27,224 nt of DNA from a virus: IMG/VR virus record IMGVR_UViG_3300008114_002791, positions 1 to 27,224 of that record; one strand, written 5' to 3'. Both the position numbers and the translations under genes were made by a program. Shown piece after piece: positions 3,370-25,252 of the stretch; the stretch's first letter is position 1, and the number at the start of each line of letters is the position of its first letter. A model generated the notes under the pieces. It was given only the letters and a program-made list of their open reading frames with translations. It was not told the origin of the DNA and ran no database searches.

Positions 3370-3783
3370 ATGGTAACAACTATGTTGGATCTTTTTCAAG
3401 ATCCTTTTTTTGTTGGCTTTAACCGTGAGTTAGAGCGTTTCAAAAAAGTACAAACAAACAGTACTGGGTATCCACCTTATGATCTAATCAAAATTGATGA
3501 AGATACATATGAGGTAGATATTGCTCTTGCTGGCTTTGCCAAAGATGATATTGAAGTAACCGTAGATAACGGTTCTCTTGTCATTAAAGGTGAAAAGAAA
3601 GACAATACGGATGATTCCAAGACTGTATATAAGGGAATCAGTTCTCGTAAATTTACCCGCATTTTTGCACTGGGTGAATATATGGAAGTAACTAATGCTG
3701 AATTGCTTGATGGCTTGTTGACTGTAAAGATTGAAAGAATCATACCAGAAGACAAAAAGCCTAAACAAATTCAGGTAAAATAG
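3370..3783 (+). CDS. hsp20: Small heat-shock protein (Hsp20/alpha-crystallin, IbpA type)
   Basis: 137 residues. The alpha-crystallin domain runs from about GYPPYDLIKIDEDTYEVDI (residue 33 on) through AGFAKDDIEV, LVIKGEKK and GISSRKFTRIFALGEYMEV to the A-x-x-x-x-GLL motif (AELLDGLLTVKIE). It ends with a PEDKKPKQIQVK tail typical of IbpA. It is an ATP-independent holdase that forms oligomers and keeps unfolding proteins soluble. Hsp20 genes are recurrent in T4-like cyanophages, where they are usually near structural genes. Good SD (AAGGAG, 6 nt) and its own promoter suggest high expression. Confidence 0.93.
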   Translation: MVTTMLDLFQDPFFVGFNRELERFKKVQTNSTGYPPYDLIKIDEDTYEVDIALAGFAKDDIEVTVDNGSLVIKGEKKDNTDDSKTVYKGISSRKFTRIFALGEYMEVTNAELLDGLLTVKIERIIPEDKKPKQIQVK

Positions 3784-3864
3784 ACTCATAGTTATTTAAT
3801 TCGGATATTAACTAGAGGGACCTGAGCATGTCTGTAAACTGCTCTTTACTTTTTGATCACTGAT

Positions 3865-3873
3865 TGGTATACT
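3865..3873 (+). promoter_or_regulatory. Extended -10 promoter, leaderless start at 3880
   Basis: TGGTATACT with exactly 6 nt (ATATAT) before ATG 3880, and a weak -35 candidate TTTACT 17 bp upstream. This spacing puts the transcription start on the A of the ATG. Confidence 0.6.
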
Positions 3874-3879
3874 ATATAT

Positions 3880-4356
3880 ATGGCTAGATCAATGGTTCCA
3901 GACGATGTGCTTTATCCCTTTGAAGAATTTGTTATAAATAAAAATAAAACTTTAAAAGGCTTTATATATGATTATTTTGCCAAAGAGTGGTATTATCAAT
4001 GCCCTTCCTGTTTTGCTGACATTTATGGTCCTAGCAAAAAAGGTATAAGAAAAAATACTAAATATCATTACAAAGAAATTTGTGGTGGTGGTTGGTATGT
4101 TACAGTGACTGCAGAAGACTATAATGGAAATAAATTTTTAATAATGAATGCTCAAACTAATGATTATTCAGCAAAGGTATTGTCATATGTAATTAATTAT
4201 GCAGAAAAAAACAATATGAATTTAATTTATGATCTTACATGGGGAGGGGCTTGGATATTAAAAGGAGACAAGGATCAGTTAGCAGATTATATTTTTAATT
4301 CAAAATCTTTTGAACATATGCCATTAAACTTTACACATCATCAAGAAACTATATAA
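3880..4356 (+). CDS. Conserved-looking protein of unknown function
   Basis: 158 residues. I start it at MARSMVPDDVLY because of the leaderless promoter spacing; a 9-codon longer frame from 3853 would begin inside the promoter. It has one CxxC pair (QCPSCFADIYG) flanked by aromatic residues, a Gly-rich turn GGGWYVTV and a C-terminal WGGAWILKGDKDQL segment. I do not recognise the family. It stands alone between hsp20 and a convergent small gene, and shares a hairpin at its end. Confidence 0.65.
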   Translation: MARSMVPDDVLYPFEEFVINKNKTLKGFIYDYFAKEWYYQCPSCFADIYGPSKKGIRKNTKYHYKEICGGGWYVTVTAEDYNGNKFLIMNAQTNDYSAKVLSYVINYAEKNNMNLIYDLTWGGAWILKGDKDQLADYIFNSKSFEHMPLNFTHHQETI

Positions 4357-8136: not shown

Positions 8137-8427
8137 TTATTTACTAGTACCCATGGTTAAGGTTTGCCAAATATTTGCCCAGATAGGTTTTGTTTTATGG
8201 TTATTAAATTCTCTAGATATTTCTCCTTGTTCAAGATAAATACCGCCCCAAACTCCCCATTCTTTTTGAGTGATTCCAACAGAAAAACATTCTTTCATAA
8301 CAGGACACCCTGAACATAGTTTGTCTATGGCTGGCCTAAGCATTAAATCATTTTCATATTTTTCAAAAAAAATGTTAGTGTCATATTTATAACATGATCC
8401 TTTTTCTTTCCATTCATGTTTTTTCAT
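8137..8427 (-). CDS. WhiB-like iron-sulfur transcription regulator
   Basis: 96 residues with the complete WhiB signature: C12, C38-x2-C41-x5-C47 (LCSGCPVMKECF), which hold a [4Fe-4S] cluster, then the G[VI]WGG turn (GVWGG, 58-62). The family is restricted to Actinobacteria and their phages and acts by binding the primary sigma factor. The C-terminal DNA-contact region is short and not notably basic (EISREFNNHKTKPIW). A phage copy could redirect host sigma factor to the many extended -10 promoters here, or block superinfection as reported for some actinophage WhiB proteins. It follows the 8429 gene by one nucleotide. Confidence 0.92.
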   Translation of the reverse strand: MKKHEWKEKGSCYKYDTNIFFEKYENDLMLRPAIDKLCSGCPVMKECFSVGITQKEWGVWGGIYLEQGEISREFNNHKTKPIWANIWQTLTMGTSK

Positions 8428-8428
8428 A

Positions 8429-8638
8429 TTATCCTACATATTTAGTTGGAATATTCCAACCATCTCTTGATGGTGAAAATATTTTTTTAATATACCATGC
8501 TCCATTAACAAAGGCACCAGCAGTAGACAAACGCCCCTTATCTGATTGTGTCATCTCTATTACATCCCAACCATCCCAAGACAACTTTTTATTATTTGAA
8601 ACAATTGATTCCATAACTTCTAATTTATCAATTATCAT
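8429..8638 (-). CDS. Unknown small protein, 69 residues
   Basis: The sequence contains SWDGWDVIEMTQSDKGRLS and GAFVNGAWYIKKIFSPSRDGW, rich in Trp and Gly with beta-strand character. It lies between the SpeD homologue (ATGA overlap) and WhiB and is probably co-translated with both. I do not recognise a family. Confidence 0.65.
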   Translation of the reverse strand: MIIDKLEVMESIVSNNKKLSWDGWDVIEMTQSDKGRLSTAGAFVNGAWYIKKIFSPSRDGWNIPTKYVG

Positions 8639-9015
8639 TTTGCACCTAAATCAATTGCTTTAAAGCCAGTCTCTCTATCAAACAGAATCCAATCCATTGA
8701 TTCAATTTGCATTTCTCTATCTATGTGTTCAAGAACAATATCTTTATCTAGTTCTCCACATGTGTATAAATCAAATTGCAACATTGCAGGATCTTTTTCA
8801 TCCCAAATGTGAAAAGCAATGTGGGATGTTTCAATCATTACTACTGCTGTTAAGCCACGATTTCCTTCTGCCTCAACATAAGAAGCAAATGGACCTTTAA
8901 TAATTTTCATTTGTATTGCATAAACTAGTCTTGTTAAAAAACCAACACCATCTTCTGGAGTTTTTAGTGGATTCTTTACTCTAGCATTAATTAATATGTG
9001 TTTATGTTGTAACAT
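8635..9015 (-). CDS. speD: SpeD-family pyruvoyl-dependent decarboxylase
   Basis: 126 residues from ATG 9015 (MLQHKHILINARVKNPL). The longer frame from 9078 overlaps the previous gene and adds non-conserved residues; AGAGAAAG lies upstream of the chosen start. Catalytic positions of AdoMet decarboxylase are kept: S64 (would become the pyruvoyl group after self-cleavage), H65, H69 and C86 in LYTCG. The residue before S64 is Thr where most SpeD proteins have Glu. SpeD makes decarboxylated AdoMet for spermidine; some phage and bacterial SpeD homologues have been reported to decarboxylate arginine or ornithine instead. Phages use polyamines to neutralise DNA. Confidence 0.85.
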   Translation of the reverse strand: MLQHKHILINARVKNPLKTPEDGVGFLTRLVYAIQMKIIKGPFASYVEAEGNRGLTAVVMIETSHIAFHIWDEKDPAMLQFDLYTCGELDKDIVLEHIDREMQIESMDWILFDRETGFKAIDLGAK

Positions 9016-9028
9016 TATTTTTCTTTCT

Positions 9029-9379
9029 CTAGTAGCGGAATATTCCAACTTCAACGTTGTGAAGTTCTGCTTCTGCAACTAATGCAGAAGGTTGATCCTG
9101 TGGAGTACTTAAATAAGCAAAGTATCCAATTGAATCAAAATTTTCTTTTAGCCAAGTTGGGGCAACTTTAAAAAATTTAATTTTCTTACCCCTTGCCCTT
9201 AATCCTCGCTCAGATAAATTTGAAAACTCTGAAACCATAGAATTAATTTTTGCTGGACCTGCTGAATAGATATAAAACTTAGTATCATCTTCTGGCAGTG
9301 ATGCTAGTGCTACACCCATAGCCCTGATGAATATGCTATAATCGTCAAAACTTTTGCTGCCCTGAACTGCAATTATCAT
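9029..9379 (-). CDS. SLOG/DUF2493-like Rossmannoid protein
   Basis: 116 residues opening with MIIAVQGSKSFDDYSIFIRA, close to the xxGSRxFDDY start of DUF2493/SLOG proteins, followed by FYIYSAGPAKINSMVSEFS where the nucleotide-sensing GxAxGxD motif would lie. The Arg of GSR is Lys here and the second motif is weak, so ligand binding is uncertain. SLOG domains sense or process nucleotide-derived ligands. Starts 2 nt after the upstream stop; downstream is SpeD. Confidence 0.55.
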   Translation of the reverse strand: MIIAVQGSKSFDDYSIFIRAMGVALASLPEDDTKFYIYSAGPAKINSMVSEFSNLSERGLRARGKKIKFFKVAPTWLKENFDSIGYFAYLSTPQDQPSALVAEAELHNVEVGIFRY

Positions 9380-10131: not shown

Positions 10132-10413
10132 CTACTTTATTAACGATACAGAAAATGAAGTTTTCTTACAAGGTTTTAAACCTGTAATAATTGCATCTTT
10201 TTCTTTTTTATCAACGGATAGTGACCATCTAACTTTAATTGATACCCAGTTAGTTAAATATTCGCAAATGTATGCTTTGTTTGTTGGCAACCATTCTGCT
10301 GGATCTCTATCTGATTTTGATCTGTTCGATGCACCAGTTACTGCAATTAAATGTCTTAAATCAGTTTGATCATTTGCATAGACTTCACGTTTTTTAGCAT
10401 TCCATGCACTCAA
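10132..10413 (-). pseudogene. C-terminal part of a secreted HNH (GmrSD-C/DUF1524) nuclease, catalytic core missing
   Basis: From TTG at 10413: SAWNAKKREVYANDQTDLRH, then NRSKSDRDPAEWLPTN, C-x-YLTNWVSIKVRWSLSVD and a final Cys. These are the standard second half of the DUF1524-type HNH nucleases (REAxAND..NL..V...NRSKGDxDPAxWLP...C.Y...W..VK..Y.L). The immediately preceding part of the family, which carries the catalytic DIDHxVPLAEAW His, is absent from the window. The N-terminal half is in another frame in the gene at 10394. Either broken or an assembly collapse. Confidence 0.65.
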
Positions 10414-10654
10414 CAGTTGGCTTTACAATTGCTTCTGAAATAATAACTGCTTTTCTAGAATCACAACCATTACCAACACCAACCCAGTGTTTAAATTGTT
10501 CTCTTTTATATCCTGTACGAACTTCATCAGCAACCTTTAATGTGTTCAATGCTGATAGTGCATCTTTATATTTACTATCTACAGCATTTGCAGAAATGGT
10601 ATTTAAAGATAATACTGTTGCACAAATTGCAATTAAAATTTTATTTTGCACCAT
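10394..10654 (-). pseudogene. N-terminal part of a secreted HNH (DUF1524) nuclease
   Basis: 86 residues. A signal peptide (MVQNKILIAICATVLSLNTI, cleavage near ANA-VDS) is followed by LSALNTLKVADEVRTGYKRE and QFKHWVGVGNGCDSRKAVI, the conserved first third of secreted DUF1524 nucleases (GYxRxxFxHW...GCDTRxxVL). After EAIVKPTV the frame reads ECMEC and stops. About 40 expected residues, including the catalytic HNH histidine, are missing, and the remainder continues in a different frame at 10413. The start ATG lies inside the end of the 47-residue gene upstream. Confidence 0.65.
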
Positions 10655-10784
10655 TTGCTTTTACCCCCATATATCCTGTTTTCTTTTTATTCATGCTCCC
10701 TGGAACATGAAAACCACTTTTATTTGGTGCCTTAGCAATTCTTTTTTCTAAGGCTTTTTGAATTTTGTCGTGATGTTTACCCAT
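10641..10784 (-). CDS. Small basic protein, 47 residues
   Basis: MGKHHDKIQKALEKRIAKAP followed by NKSGFHVPGSMNKKKTGYMG, ending in NGAK. It has AGGAG 7 nt before ATG 10784 and overlaps the previous gene by 8 nt. It overlaps the nuclease signal-peptide gene by 14 nt. A helical basic first half and a Gly/Pro-rich second half suggest a nucleic-acid-binding or virion-associated peptide. Function is inference only. Confidence 0.6.
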   Translation of the reverse strand: MGKHHDKIQKALEKRIAKAPNKSGFHVPGSMNKKKTGYMGVKANGAK

Positions 10785-11469
10785 TATTTTCTCCTAGTTT
10801 TTCTACTTTAAAACTACTATCTTCATTATGCACAACACTTTTAATATTAGGTAGTTTAATTATCTTAGCATTTGGAAAATCAAGTTTAATCATTTCACTA
10901 ACTTGTTCAAAATGCAACAAATCATCTTTTGTCATCCCAGAAACATGTTTAACTCCCACAACAACTTGTGGGTTTATATACAAGGCATCTACATATTGTC
11001 CAGAATTTACTTCATTCCATGTTTGATAAGTATCTAACATTAAAGTAGTATCTTCTTTCCAATCAAAAAGACCAAACTTTCTAATAATAGTTATTGCTCT
11101 TGTTGGTAAAGCATCTTCATGACTATCACCAGTATTAACTATTTTATGATGAAATACCTCTGGATCTTCCCAAACTCTTGATGATGTATTCTCTATTGTA
11201 TCTACCCAAACTATAATATTGGGTTTTCCAAAAACATCTCTATGTTGTTGTAAATTAAATACTGAGTCAACAATAACTGGCTTATCCTGTGTTTGTTCTA
11301 GTGTTTTTGCTAATATACCAAGTTTATAATAATATTGTATTTCTGACATACCGCCAAAAACATCTGTATATCTTTGTCTATCTAGGTGCAAACCGTTAAT
11401 TCTATCTCTAACTGCATCTGCAATTTCTGTAGCACCAGATCCAGGCAAACCCATAAATTGAATTATCAT
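10777..11469 (-). CDS. APS-kinase/NMNAT-like two-domain protein with both active sites degenerate
   Basis: 230 residues from ATG 11469 (MIIQFMGLPGSGATE). Domain 1 (about 1-140) matches adenylylsulfate-kinase-like P-loop proteins, but the Walker A lysine is Ala (GLPGSGAT, K to A13). The second strand VIVDSVF and IIVWVDTIE remain. Domain 2 (about 140-230) matches the nucleotidyltransferase part that normally starts GRYQPWHxGH; here the same position reads DTYQTWNEVN (146-155), so the Arg and both His are lost. QVVVGVKHVSGMT, LHFEQV and IKLPNI still fit the family. Full length is retained, so it looks like a maintained pseudoenzyme rather than debris. It follows the related gene by 1 nt. Confidence 0.6.
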   Translation of the reverse strand: MIIQFMGLPGSGATEIADAVRDRINGLHLDRQRYTDVFGGMSEIQYYYKLGILAKTLEQTQDKPVIVDSVFNLQQHRDVFGKPNIIVWVDTIENTSSRVWEDPEVFHHKIVNTGDSHEDALPTRAITIIRKFGLFDWKEDTTLMLDTYQTWNEVNSGQYVDALYINPQVVVGVKHVSGMTKDDLLHFEQVSEMIKLDFPNAKIIKLPNIKSVVHNEDSSFKVEKLGENNG

Positions 11470-11470
11470 T

Positions 11471-11926
11471 TTAACTAAAGTGCCTATCGTATTGCAAAAC
11501 AACCTGTGCAATCATACTATCTATAGAACCCATAGATTTTGTTATTACAAAGTGGTATTCGTGTTCTAGTGGTGCTTCCCATTTAAAATCAGATGGAGCA
11601 TTTGGAACTGGAGTTGGAGGAACTGCATCTGCCTCATCAACTGTATCTACCCAAACACTTAGAGTGTTAGGAAAATAATCTGGATAATCTCTAAACTGTT
11701 CTCTTGCTTCTATTGTTGGAAAATATCCACTTGGAACAAAAAGTTCTATCTTATTTCTTGATGCCACTGTACCAATAGTTCTTAACCATCTTGCGTATGG
11801 TGACTCTGTACTTGCTGTAGGTAACTCTCTATCTGTGCAAAAAAAGCCACCCATTTTATCTGAAAAACCTTTTGCAACTTGATTTCTAGTTTCTGCGTCT
11901 AAACCAAAAAAATGAACTGTACGCAT
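11471..11926 (-). CDS. APS-kinase-like paralogue without a Walker A motif
   Basis: 151 residues. Its layout follows domain 1 of the next gene: strand-loop-helix VHFFGLDAETRNQVAKGF in place of a P-loop, GGFFCTDREL, then IELFVPSGYFPTIEARE and LSVWVDTVDEAD, which lines up with IIVWVDTIENT of its neighbour, then HFVITKSMGSIDSMIAQVV near the end. No GxxxxGK[ST] is present, so ATP binding by the usual route is unlikely. The two genes probably arose by tandem duplication and may form a heteromer. Function is not known. Confidence 0.5.
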   Translation of the reverse strand: MRTVHFFGLDAETRNQVAKGFSDKMGGFFCTDRELPTASTESPYARWLRTIGTVASRNKIELFVPSGYFPTIEAREQFRDYPDYFPNTLSVWVDTVDEADAVPPTPVPNAPSDFKWEAPLEHEYHFVITKSMGSIDSMIAQVVLQYDRHFS

Positions 11927-11928
11927 AA

Positions 11929-12171
11929 TTAGTCCTGTCCTTTCAACTTGTTTTCAATCAACTTATCTCTTTCATCTATTATGTTAATAGCAAATTTCAT
12001 AATCTTATCATATCCAACAGCGTTGTCAACAATTTTATTATAGTGATGTGCACAAAACAACAAGTCTCCATCTAGGCCTATAGCCTTTACATAGGCTTGT
12101 GCATTACACCTATCACATCTATCGTGTAATGTTAATAGATATTCTTTTTGATCAGAGGTTGTTTGAGTCAT
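11929..12171 (-). CDS. DUF7455-like actinobacterial zinc protein
   Basis: 80 residues from MTQTTSDQKE (ATG 12171, preferred to ATG 12177 because it lies 7 nt after a TATAAT box and matches the leaderless pattern). RCDRCNAQAYVKAIGLDGDL followed by LFCAHHYNKI is the hallmark of DUF7455 proteins of Actinobacteria (CDRCGAQAYV...LxFCAHH), a probable zinc knuckle. A helical, charged C-terminus (DERDKLIENKLKGQD) is added. It is first gene of the 12.2-to-8.1 kb unit. The exact role is unknown in hosts too. Confidence 0.75.
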   Translation of the reverse strand: MTQTTSDQKEYLLTLHDRCDRCNAQAYVKAIGLDGDLLFCAHHYNKIVDNAVGYDKIMKFAINIIDERDKLIENKLKGQD

Positions 12172-12178
12172 TAACATA

Positions 12179-13614: not shown

Positions 13615-14570
13615 TATGAATATGTTTTGCTATTAAGAACGCTTCTTCTTACTTGCCAATAATCTTCTTCTATGCCTATTTCATTATAAAAATCTATAAT
13701 ACTTCTTGTATAGTTTAAAAAGTTAAAGTATTTATTTTTACCCATTATCATTAATTTTTTAACTTCTTTTGTCATTTCATCATCATCAAAGATCCATATT
13801 CTAGTCCAGTGATTTGGATCATTACGATCAGTTCCAACAAACTTCCACCATCTTTCATCATAAGGAAATGAGTATTTAATGTCGTTACCAGCATAATGAA
13901 CTATATTATCAGCGTATGGGGCAACTACATCATAACCTTGACAATATACTGCTATAGATTGTTCTGGCTCTTCAAATGGAAATCTATGATATGAAGGAAA
14001 TTCTATTGCTTTAATGTCAGAACATTTTGCAAAAATAAAATTACAAGAAATATAATAATTTTTAAAATATTTTTCATTTATTTTATCTTTATCTAATATG
14101 GAGTCAAACTCAATAACTTCGCCGTGAAAGTCTAATTCATCAAAGTTTCCACCCATAATCCATTTTGTTTTCCAATTATACCTGCCCTGTACAACTGCTG
14201 TAGCCTGTCTAGATATAATTCTCTTTTCATTATTTTTAGTTAATTCTTCTATATCTTCTATTAAACACGTATCCCAATTAAGTTCAAAATCTGCATGAGC
14301 GTCTATCCCCAAGAAATATTGTTCATCGTCTATTAGACCCCTTATAGCCTCTCTAATGCCCACTATACCTGGCTGACCTTCTGCTATATCTTTGTCTCTA
14401 ACTATTTTTACGTTATTAAACATTGATAAATCTGGTTCTTCTTTATAATTTAACCCTAATCCAAATACAATATTTTCAGGATAGTAGGCAGTATCTAAAA
14501 TATGATTCATAGTATCAACTAAATGAGTATCTTCCCATGCTGGAATAGACACAAATATTTTTTTATTCAT
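13614..14570 (-). CDS. GT60-like glycosyltransferase (GlcNAc family, PF11397-type)
   Basis: 318 residues from ATG 14570 (MNKKIFVSIPAWEDTHLVDT), coupled to the carbamoyltransferase stop as ATGA. The family marks are the opening IFVSIxxxxDxxLxxT, the donor region EGQPGIVGIREAIRGL, and DxH in FLGIDAHADFELNWD (D90, H92), which fits the metal-binding DSH of the GlcNAc (PF11397) group. The best known member is the cytoplasmic Skp1 hydroxyproline GlcNAc-transferase of Dictyostelium. In this window it sits near two prolyl-hydroxylase-like genes. Donor and acceptor here are unproven. Confidence 0.75.
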   Translation of the reverse strand: MNKKIFVSIPAWEDTHLVDTMNHILDTAYYPENIVFGLGLNYKEEPDLSMFNNVKIVRDKDIAEGQPGIVGIREAIRGLIDDEQYFLGIDAHADFELNWDTCLIEDIEELTKNNEKRIISRQATAVVQGRYNWKTKWIMGGNFDELDFHGEVIEFDSILDKDKINEKYFKNYYISCNFIFAKCSDIKAIEFPSYHRFPFEEPEQSIAVYCQGYDVVAPYADNIVHYAGNDIKYSFPYDERWWKFVGTDRNDPNHWTRIWIFDDDEMTKEVKKLMIMGKNKYFNFLNYTRSIIDFYNEIGIEEDYWQVRRSVLNSKTYS

Positions 14571-16000
14571 TGTAATATTTTTGCTCCGTATGTTTGTTCC
14601 CAATTAATTATATCACTCTCATCATTAAGCAATGGTTGACCCTTAATGTTTAAACTAGTATTAAGTAAAACTGGTACCTTTGATATTTTGTACCATCTAG
14701 ACAACAAATCGTATAACCCAGGATGCTGATCTTTATTTACAGTCTGAACTCTGGAGGTACCATCTTTATGAACAACGGACGGTAACAAATCTGGCTTTAA
14801 ACACTTAACTGCATACTGCATATAAGGACTTGTAAAATTCATATCAAACCATTTACTTGCATGTTCTTCCATCACAACTGGTGCAAAGGGTCTAAAGAGT
14901 TCACGTTTTTTAATGTTATTAACCTTATCTTTAATGTTTGGATCTCGAGGGTCTGCCAATATACTTCTATTACCTAGTGCTCTTGGTCCATATTCTGCTC
15001 TTCCACTCGCTACCGCCGCAATTCCGTTATTCACTATTTCATTTAATGCTGCATATACTGGATAGTTATCTCCCAAATCATATCCAAGAAACGGTGTCTT
15101 AAAATCAACATGCTTTCCATACAGGGCTGCTGCAGCACCCAAAGAACTTCCAGCATCCCCAGGGTTTGGCATAATCCATACATCATCAAATATAGCCCAC
15201 AATATTGTATTAGCAGAACAGTTAAGAGCACACCCACCCATAAAAACTAATTTATCTTTTTGAGTTAATCTTTTTGCCATAAACATAAAATCTACTAACC
15301 TTATTTGATAAACTTCTTGCACTGCTGCTGCAATATCAAACCTATCTTGCTCAGTTATTTCTGATCCCCAATCAAAAATTCCTTTATGAAAATTATATTT
15401 TTGATAATCAATTGATGGAAAATACTCTAAAACTTTTTTCAGATATTTTTGTTTATCTCCATAGGCAGCCATGCCCATCATTATGTATTCTTCTTGGTTT
15501 GGCATCAGGCCAATCAATTGAGTAAAAGCAGAATAAAACAAACCAAAACTAAAAGGATAATTATCTTTGTATATTAACTTAATATCATTTCCTTCTCCAG
15601 TCCAAATGGTAGAGGTATTAAATTCTCCAATTGAGTCAAGTACTACTATTACTGCATCGTCAAACTTACTAGTATAGTATCCTGCTGCTGCATGTGAGTA
15701 ATGATGTTTAAAATTAGTCCTTGGTATTGCATTAAGATAGGTATGTTCAAACCAAGGCTTGCCGCCACCAAAACCACCACGAGTTGCAACTCTCAGTTTT
15801 TTTAAAAAAGGATTTTCATAGTAGGCTATTTGATCTGGAATCCCATACTCCAATGCATTATCTATTAAACCTTTATTAGTAAACCAGTCGTTTTTAATTT
15901 TGCTATATCTTTCTGCATGCCCAGAAAATAAAACCTTGTTATCTTTAATTAAAGATATAGAAGCATCATGAGTTGTTTCATTAATTCCCATTATTAGCAT
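14567..16000 (-). CDS. NodU/CmcH-family O-carbamoyltransferase
   Basis: 477 residues, somewhat shorter than the usual 550-600. The N-terminal Kae1-like domain has MGINETTHDASISL, and FKHHYSHAAAGYY with the iron/ATP-site histidines H99/H100/H103. Then come MMGMAAYGD, GGCALNCSANT and NPGDAGSSLGAA. The C-terminal YrdC-like part has GRAEYGPRALGNRS (333-346), KKRELFRPFAPVV and a final NTSLNIKGQPLLND. These enzymes transfer a carbamoyl group from carbamoyl phosphate (via carbamoyl-AMP) to a hydroxyl of a sugar or antibiotic. Start at 16000 is supported by GGAG 7 nt upstream; ATG 15991 is an alternative. It lies between a GT60 enzyme and SGNH enzymes. Confidence 0.92.
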   Translation of the reverse strand: MLIMGINETTHDASISLIKDNKVLFSGHAERYSKIKNDWFTNKGLIDNALEYGIPDQIAYYENPFLKKLRVATRGGFGGGKPWFEHTYLNAIPRTNFKHHYSHAAAGYYTSKFDDAVIVVLDSIGEFNTSTIWTGEGNDIKLIYKDNYPFSFGLFYSAFTQLIGLMPNQEEYIMMGMAAYGDKQKYLKKVLEYFPSIDYQKYNFHKGIFDWGSEITEQDRFDIAAAVQEVYQIRLVDFMFMAKRLTQKDKLVFMGGCALNCSANTILWAIFDDVWIMPNPGDAGSSLGAAAALYGKHVDFKTPFLGYDLGDNYPVYAALNEIVNNGIAAVASGRAEYGPRALGNRSILADPRDPNIKDKVNNIKKRELFRPFAPVVMEEHASKWFDMNFTSPYMQYAVKCLKPDLLPSVVHKDGTSRVQTVNKDQHPGLYDLLSRWYKISKVPVLLNTSLNIKGQPLLNDESDIINWEQTYGAKILQ

Positions 16001-23970: not shown

Positions 23971-24492
23971 CTAGATGCTTACCGTGTCAATAGGACCAGT
24001 GCAAGATGTAGAAAAATTAATAGCAGCACCGACTGCTTGAATAACTCTATTTCTTCCGTTTTTTTGTTTTTGAGTAGAATATAATGATCCAAGTGCAAAT
24101 TCTGTTGCAGAACCCATTGCCAAATAATCTAAATCATATTCTGTTAGTGACATATCAACAGCACTATGCTCAAATATTCTTCCCTTAACAGCAATTATCA
24201 TTCCAAAATCTGAATCTTTAGAAACATCAACCCACCACTTATCATAAAAATCTCTAAGTGATATTAAAAACTTTGTATACATAAATTTATCTAAGTTACC
24301 TTCTGGAACAGGTGGTTTAAAGTTTAGTCTTATTCTTTCACCATCCATAGTGCCAGCATATCCTATTAAATATTGACCAGTTTTCCAAACCTTCGGTGCT
24401 TTTAAAGTAAGCATACTGTTATCATCTGATGCACCTCTGTCACCAGCCATATAAATTTTATTATCTTGTCTAACTACTGCTATGCACGTCAA
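23971..24492 (-). CDS. HslV/20S-proteasome-like Ntn hydrolase
   Basis: 173 residues from TTG 24492, with AAGAGG 6 nt upstream; the longer GTG frame from 24531 starts inside the promoter. After Met removal the chain starts at Thr1 (TCIAVVRQDNKIYMAGDRGA). Counting from it, D17 and K33 (KAPKVWK) fall exactly on the conserved proteasome positions. GYAGTMDGERI, YLAMGSATEFALGSL and a final CTGPIDTVSI fit HslV/beta subunits. The absence of a propeptide matches HslV. No HslU or ARC/Mpa ATPase is in the window. It probably forms a ring that degrades peptides or processes phage proteins; this is inference. Confidence 0.85.
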   Translation of the reverse strand: MTCIAVVRQDNKIYMAGDRGASDDNSMLTLKAPKVWKTGQYLIGYAGTMDGERIRLNFKPPVPEGNLDKFMYTKFLISLRDFYDKWWVDVSKDSDFGMIIAVKGRIFEHSAVDMSLTEYDLDYLAMGSATEFALGSLYSTQKQKNGRNRVIQAVGAAINFSTSCTGPIDTVSI

Positions 24493-24521
24493 AGTAGGCC
24501 TCTTTAATATAGTGTTACTAA

Positions 24522-24561
24522 AGTATACCACCTATCATTTTTATAGTCAACATGGTATACT
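24522..24561. promoter_or_regulatory. Divergent extended -10 pair, protease and methyltransferase
   Basis: Minus strand: TGGTATACT (hexamer 24522-24527) with a leader of about 22 nt to TTG 24492 and SD AAGAGG. Plus strand: TGGTATACT (24553-24561) with 7 nt to ATG 24569, so leaderless. The same nine bases are used on both strands, one leadered and one leaderless. Confidence 0.65.
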
Positions 24562-24568
24562 ACTATAT

Positions 24569-25252
24569 ATGGCTGGATTATTGACCCTGGGATCTGTACA
24601 TATTGGTAACATTTTAGATGTATCTCCTAGGACAATTAGAAGTATTGTTGAGCATGACGTAATTGCCGTAGAAAGCCTTAAAAAATTTAACAAACTATTG
24701 TCTGATTTAGAAATTGAGACAAATGCACATATTATAGAAATACCAAGTTGTGAAGAAATAAATGCAATTAATAATATAGTTCAAATATTATTAAATAATA
24801 AAAATGTATTAATACTATCTGATCAGGGAAATGCTGGTTTTCATGATCCAGGCAGTGGCTATGCCAATGTTGCACTAATGCACAATATAAAAGTAACCAC
24901 CATCCCTGGACCTAACTCAGTAATAACTTCACTTGTTGTTTCAGGTATGGCACATGGTGGTTTTATATATGGTTGCTACCCTAAAGATAGTAATGAGAAC
25001 AAAAAATTTCTTAATAAGTTTATAGATATTGATTATCCAATAGTATTCTTATGTGTTCCAAGTAAAGTTGAGCAAGTCTTAAATGATACCCTGGAAGTTT
25101 TTGGTGAAGACACACATTGTATTTATGCTCAAGATCTTACAATGTCAACTGAAACAATTTTTAGATGTACAGTAAAAGAAATGCTTTTAAAATATTATAA
25201 TAACGAACTCAACAGAGAATCCGTTATTATAATAAATAGAACTGCTAATTAG
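24569..25252 (+). CDS. rsmI: RsmI-like tetrapyrrole-methylase-family methyltransferase
   Basis: 227 residues from ATG 24569 (MAGLLTLGSVHIGNILDVSP); the 29-codon longer frame runs through the promoter. Residues 4-45 follow the RsmI start (xTPIGNLxDISPRAxxxLxxxDxIxxEDTR). SDQGNAGFHDPG (84-95) matches SDAGTPxISDPG, and TIPGPNS (111-117) matches the xPGPSA motif; GFIYGCYPKDSNENKKFL fits the GFxPxKxxxR segment. RsmI 2'-O-methylates C1402 of 16S rRNA in the ribosomal P site using SAM. It lacks about 60 C-terminal residues of typical RsmI. A phage-borne copy could modify host ribosomes during infection. The rRNA target is inferred. Confidence 0.8.
   Translation: MAGLLTLGSVHIGNILDVSPRTIRSIVEHDVIAVESLKKFNKLLSDLEIETNAHIIEIPSCEEINAINNIVQILLNNKNVLILSDQGNAGFHDPGSGYANVALMHNIKVTTIPGPNSVITSLVVSGMAHGGFIYGCYPKDSNENKKFLNKFIDIDYPIVFLCVPSKVEQVLNDTLEVFGEDTHCIYAQDLTMSTETIFRCTVKEMLLKYYNNELNRESVIIINRTAN

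Follow-up and report, generated by a model that had tools for sequence, protein, structure and literature searches.

Two genes, here called A and B, lie side by side on the minus strand of the window, which is the whole stretch of DNA analysed (27,224 nucleotides; a 27-kb virus record). Their order on that strand is A then B, and B starts one base past the stop codon of A. The features of the pair, and the gene preceding it, are:

11929–12177, minus strand: DUF7455 protein, directly upstream of A (Pfam E 6e-16)
11471–11926, minus strand: gene A, a 151-aa pseudokinase, homologous to the kinase domain and without a nucleotidyltransferase domain (hhalign, N-domain tree)
11885–11905, minus strand: G[LM]DxxxR where the P-loop of A would be, with an Arg that stands for the Walker A Lys and does not vary among the aligned members
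11780–11824, minus strand: LP[MT]..ARWLR, a new conserved motif in place of the APS-site motif of A (alignment)
11720–11731, minus strand: SGYF, invariant in A (alignment)
10777–11469, minus strand: gene B, a dead two-domain protein (APS-kinase-like and HxGH nucleotidyltransferase-like) of 230 aa, matching phrog_10255
11428–11451, minus strand: P-loop remnant GLPGSGAT, residues 7–14 of B (alignment with intact enzymes)
11005–11034, minus strand: DTYQTWNEVN, residues 146–155 of B, at the position of GRYQPWHEGH, the HxGH motif being lost
10777–10840, minus strand: shortened C-terminus of B, with a degenerate YGRDVGY and the ISATxKR tail missing (alignment)

The synteny extends to relative L031, where a DUF7455 gene lies directly upstream of an intact, single-copy B. 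The window also codes for a WhiB protein (8137–8427), which together with the DUF7455 protein (11929–12177) suggests an actinobacterial host, and the freshwater phage group carrying the dead pair probably infects actinobacteria. Other genes of the window include a phage-encoded S-adenosylmethionine decarboxylase-like gene (8635–9078), a NodU/TobZ-type carbamoyltransferase (14567–16000), with homologous ORFs near the same locus in L023, L019, L031, L153, L164 and L166, and, at 23971–25252, a divergent TP_methylase (RsmI-like) gene and a 186-aa protein which by eye resembles a proteasome-type hydrolase, with no Pfam match. On the other side of B, a gene for a secreted HNH-type nuclease (10132–10654, minus strand; GmrSD_C match in its intact relative in L019) has lost about 125 bp near 10410, which takes out the DVDHMVPL core and puts the remainder out of frame. 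The gene is whole in L002–L004, which are 98–100% identical elsewhere in this region, and the loss may reflect strain variation or faulty assembly.

The frame of B starts at the ATG at 11469 and stops at 10777–10779, giving 230 aa; the 244-aa version listed for it corresponds to an upstream TTG start, and the relatives favour the ATG. B matches the profile of phrog_10255 (“kinase”) across residues 2–225 (E 1e-15) and is 47–53% identical to intact enzymes, which places its homology far beyond chance. Its AlphaFold2 model (pLDDT 85.5, pTM 0.80) is a confident predicted fold with a kinase-like N-domain, and in a Foldseek comparison with 1d6j it reached a probability of 1.00 (E 6e-5), other small P-loop kinases scoring similarly. 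As modelled, the N-domain has a kinase fold like that of APS kinase (CysC).

The intact relatives of B are mostly 249–255 aa long (255 aa for the reference) and are built with the APS-kinase-like domain first and the HxGH nucleotidyltransferase domain second; intact phrog_10255-type examples are those of L030, L152, Clavibacter phage 33 and Stenotrophomonas phage DLP_6. They carry the motifs GLPGSGKT, NADxVRxxxNxDLGFSxEDR (the APS-kinase-like segment), GRFEDTN, GRYQPWHEGH, YGRDVGY and ISATxKR, from which their activity is predicted. The APS_kinase family (PF01583) is matched at E 3e-16 (E 2.8e-16 in L030), and the C-domain gives weaker matches to cytidylyltransferase-like and NMN adenylyltransferase models. 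SAR11 and SAR86 genomes encode the kinase and the nucleotidyltransferase domain separately, in two genes that overlap (4995–5776 in L227, 5001–5778 in L200). The recurrent neighbours at the SAR11 loci are a DMSP-demethylase-like protein, an enoyl-CoA hydratase and a MetF-like protein, with a methanethiol-oxidase-like protein in some, hinting at a role of the intact enzyme in sulfur or one-carbon metabolism. In Salvovirus-type phages, the start of the intact kinase-transferase gene is overlapped by the gene for what we take to be a NADAR-like protein (3553–3996 in both L024 and L026). Phage NADAR genes occur alongside NAD salvage genes (PMC9503650).

Against this reference, both of the signatures that a sequence-only reading had pointed out in B, the Lys-less GLPGSGAT and DTYQTWNEVN in the place of GRYQPWHxGH, were confirmed on the minus-strand ORF. 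Every member of the dead-B clade has Ala where the Walker A Lys should be, and neither the HxGH motif nor an ISxTxxR-type motif of HIGH nucleotidyltransferases is present in B. The APS-site motif N-x-DLGFS-xx-DR, present in the closest intact relatives, is deleted or replaced in both B and A; in B, six residues are missing across it and four more at GRFEDTN. With these deletions and the loss of the C-terminal ISATxKR tail, B measures 230 aa against 255, and the earlier description of it as a full-length protein had to be dropped. The assignment of the reference motifs, on which that reading depended, proved right: L023 is an intermediate with NRYQPWHKTN at the HxGH position, so the reference alignment holds, as is also borne out by the identity of B to the intact enzymes.

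The whole clade to which the B of the window belongs shows these losses. Across 20 intact enzymes, 45 positions do not vary; of these, the window B keeps 15 (33%) and the dead Bs 13–18 (29–40%), while at the remaining positions 44–50% of dead B matches the nearest intact enzyme. The order of conservation is levelled or inverted in dead B, an effect that is statistically modest for any single sequence (p 0.03–0.6). All dead Bs examined share sixteen residues that none of the intact ones has, and the Gly-rich loop GLPGSG is unaltered in all dead Bs. In addition, B (10777–11469) looks mosaic: its N-domain groups with L023 (99/94), while its C-domain, together with gene A, groups with other members, a discordance which suggests recombination inside the gene.

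Gene A has no Pfam or PHROG match above cut-off, phrog_10255 included, and no detectable A is found among GenBank phage records. Its origin is seen from a profile comparison of its family with that of B, by which A is homologous to the kinase domain (hhalign probability 95%, E 5e-8). The absence of a P-loop, also remarked on in the sequence-only reading, is equally clear, as GLDAETRN stands at that position in the A of the window. The structure model of A is of low confidence (pLDDT 63).

Relaxed selection, with dN/dS near 1, was looked for in both genes and not seen. With a GY94-like codon model (own implementation, one omega for all sites), nine dead Bs give an omega of 0.084 and eight As from the window's clade one of 0.106, an omega of 1 being worse by 263 and 139 log-likelihood units, respectively. 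The corresponding values are 0.067 for the A of other phages, 0.018 for the full-length dead paralogues (D, described below) and 0.03 for intact B. Pairwise counts agree, with nearly all A pairs at 0.10–0.41 and the dead-B pairs at 0.05–0.34, and no relative, down to about 50–66% protein identity, has a broken frame. The dead pair is under constraint, though about three times more loosely than the intact enzyme. A and B are thus pseudoenzymes in the usual sense, as both have enzyme homology, lack the catalytic residues and are under purifying selection. This upholds the earlier proposal that both domains were catalytically ablated while the frame was kept, the motif losses being common to the clade.

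Dead B occurs in the window and in at least 16 viral contigs, one of them a fragment not spanning A, and in the window and all of the at least 15 clade contigs that span both genes, A lies directly upstream of it (the contig counts for A, B and D are lower bounds; many contigs are fragments and some are near-copies of each other). In at least 16 further contigs, no more than about 3 kb separates A from a fully intact B, with A adjacent and upstream, for example in L152, L249, L250, L274 and L299, further upstream in L272 and L295–L298, or downstream in L164, L286, L287 and L293. At least 7 contigs of 7–109 kb carry A with no B found, so that A need not always act with B. A third form, the paralogue D, is dead too but of full length; its N-domain is of the A type and its transferase domain is ruined (GKFQPWTDSDLEK or GRFQDWNSKN). 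It was found in at least 7 contigs, at least 5 of which have an intact B elsewhere. The combination of a dead and an intact paralogue is thus found in related phages with the same A family, and was not encountered in the window's clade, where contigs of 91 and 61 kb each have a single B-type match, the dead one. The idea that the dead proteins regulate an intact copy elsewhere in the same phage was discarded, as these long contigs contain no intact copy. Of the coding of the 91-kb contig, 82% is shared with a 99.6-kb phage that has an intact B.

In trees of the N-domain, A and D form one clade (100/100) and dead B another (100/99), and the A of the window is sister to the A of L248 and L249, which adjoin an intact B (100/100). 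The same tree separates A from D incompletely (the AU test, at p 0.41, does not reject A as one clade). The C-domain tree, from which the motif and the tail were removed for most rows, groups dead B with D (100/99; AU p about 0.02 against two alternative placements). On a common origin of all dead forms, the N-domains are equivocal (89/85; AU p about 0.1), and long branches are involved. In either case A belongs to the older family, always P-loop-less, and B is dead only in the window's clade. Since A is already a pseudokinase in related phages with an intact B, the death of B is a separate, clade-specific step. A single, simultaneous degeneration of a tandem pair is not supported given the older A family, and the earlier picture of A and B as a simple degenerate tandem gives way to one in which the A family accompanies the intact enzyme in many phages and B died separately.

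Of the known systems, NMN adenylyltransferase and the NadM-NadR HIGH superfamily are matched by the C-domain of the intact relatives, whereas B has neither HxGH nor ISATxKR. In NadR the transferase domain comes first and the kinase domain after it, while in B the kinase domain comes first and both domains are ablated. The NadR fusion of NMN adenylyltransferase and ribosylnicotinamide kinase has been described (PMC9503650). APS kinase (CysC, PF01583) is like B in the fold of the N-domain (Foldseek, 1d6j), but its P-loop Lys and N-x-DLGFS-xx-DR are missing in A and B, neither of which has a Pfam match to the family above cut-off. The closest resemblance is to the phrog_10255 enzymes, with which B shares homology over the full length, the domain order and, in L031, the upstream neighbour; the intact family has the catalytic motifs and the C-terminal tail, all of which B lacks.

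The best-known cases of a pseudoenzyme partnering an active paralogue are eukaryotic. In trypanosomes, for AdoMetDC prozyme and deoxyhypusine synthase, a duplicate without catalytic residues is retained beside an active paralogue (PMC5201418, PMC3663545). These resemble the other phages in which A accompanies an intact B, and differ from the window's clade, where both partners are dead, the organism is a phage rather than a eukaryote, and the case is known from its sequence. Vaccinia virus B12 is a virus-encoded pseudokinase that acts by binding a host protein (PMC9175622). It is likewise a virus-encoded dead kinase homologue, but the kinase fold and the virus are unrelated, and it is a single gene rather than a pair.

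Because the catalytic motifs are all lost and selection yet keeps both proteins intact, the role of A and B in the infected cell is very probably a non-enzymatic one, as far as can be judged from their sequences. The account that we prefer, with somewhat better than even confidence, is that they are a pseudoenzyme pair derived from a phage two-domain enzyme and now act by binding only, likely as a putative hetero-oligomer docking onto a protein. The two would be co-translated, and both are homologous to an APS-kinase-like plus HxGH nucleotidyltransferase-like phage enzyme. A may originally have been the dead partner subunit of the active enzyme, in the manner of a prozyme; the active subunit, B, would later have lost catalysis too in the window's clade, and the pair would have been kept for binding alone, most likely as a putative hetero-oligomer with a protein target, which may be the homologous enzyme of the host itself or some other host factor. 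Docking onto a protein is favoured over the trapping of a nucleotide, since the substrate-pocket motifs are lost in both domains. Among the non-catalytic roles named in the sequence-only reading, binding or scaffolding therefore stands as the best one, while the decoy of a nucleotide signal is disfavoured.

That decoy would work as a sponge, the dead pockets still able to bind, and thereby sequester, either the nucleotide once used as substrate or an immune signal related to it. The unaltered GLPGSG loop of the dead Bs is compatible with it, as are the invariant Arg of A at the Walker Lys position and the presumed NADAR-like gene beside intact relatives in Salvovirus-type phages. However, the APS-site motif, GRFEDTN, HxGH, YGRD and ISATxKR are lost or deleted, so that the pocket contacts are gone and not catalysis alone, and A has no Gly loop, which makes this unlikely. 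Rather unlikely, though still a contender, is that the fold of A has been re-tooled, its former P-loop/APS pocket having become a new conserved site (G[LM]DxxxR, LP[MT]..ARWLR and SGYF) and A and B together a new type of phage effector, one that might inhibit or sense a nucleotide-based pathway of the host or a defence system. The replacement of the P-loop of A by strictly conserved motifs does resemble a specific site rather than decay, and with the 16 residues fixed in the dead Bs examined and found in none of the intact ones it could even indicate a repurposed catalyst, with a composite or new active site formed by A and B, for instance via the invariant D and R of A. We regard such a catalyst as distinctly unlikely, as HxGH is in neither protein, A has no phosphate-binding loop, B has no Lys, and no known catalytic motif is recognisable in either.

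Phage genes can also be recruited as structural proteins, and A and B might reuse the fold in the virion. The neighbours are DUF7455, a WhiB-like regulator, an S-adenosylmethionine decarboxylase and oxygenase-like genes, with no recognisable virion genes among them, and we find this improbable. Ordinary pseudogenisation, in which recently inactivated genes are being lost, would account for the missing catalytic residues and the small deletions, and the nearby HNH-type gene of the window has itself suffered a 125-bp deletion. It was nevertheless rejected as scarcely credible: the frames are open in relatives down to about 50–66% identity, the omegas of 0.084 and 0.106 have overwhelming likelihood support, and the losses are fixed and shared by the clade rather than scattered.

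Pseudoenzymes as such are already known. A review of them names no phage case, and the open-access literature searched gave no precedent for an auxiliary enzyme of a phage that has a dead partner conserved beside it or for a clade with both dead, nor a direct precedent for a fused APS-kinase/adenylyltransferase phage enzyme or for phage pseudoenzymes. For virome surveys, such genes risk being counted as sulfur-metabolism auxiliary genes (cysC) though they appear, from their motifs, to be incapable of catalysis. The genomes of this phage group show a graded series, from the intact enzyme alone, through the intact enzyme with a dead partner and the intact enzyme with a full-length dead paralogue, to both dead, and this makes it directly testable how and why a metabolic enzyme turns into a non-catalytic protein.
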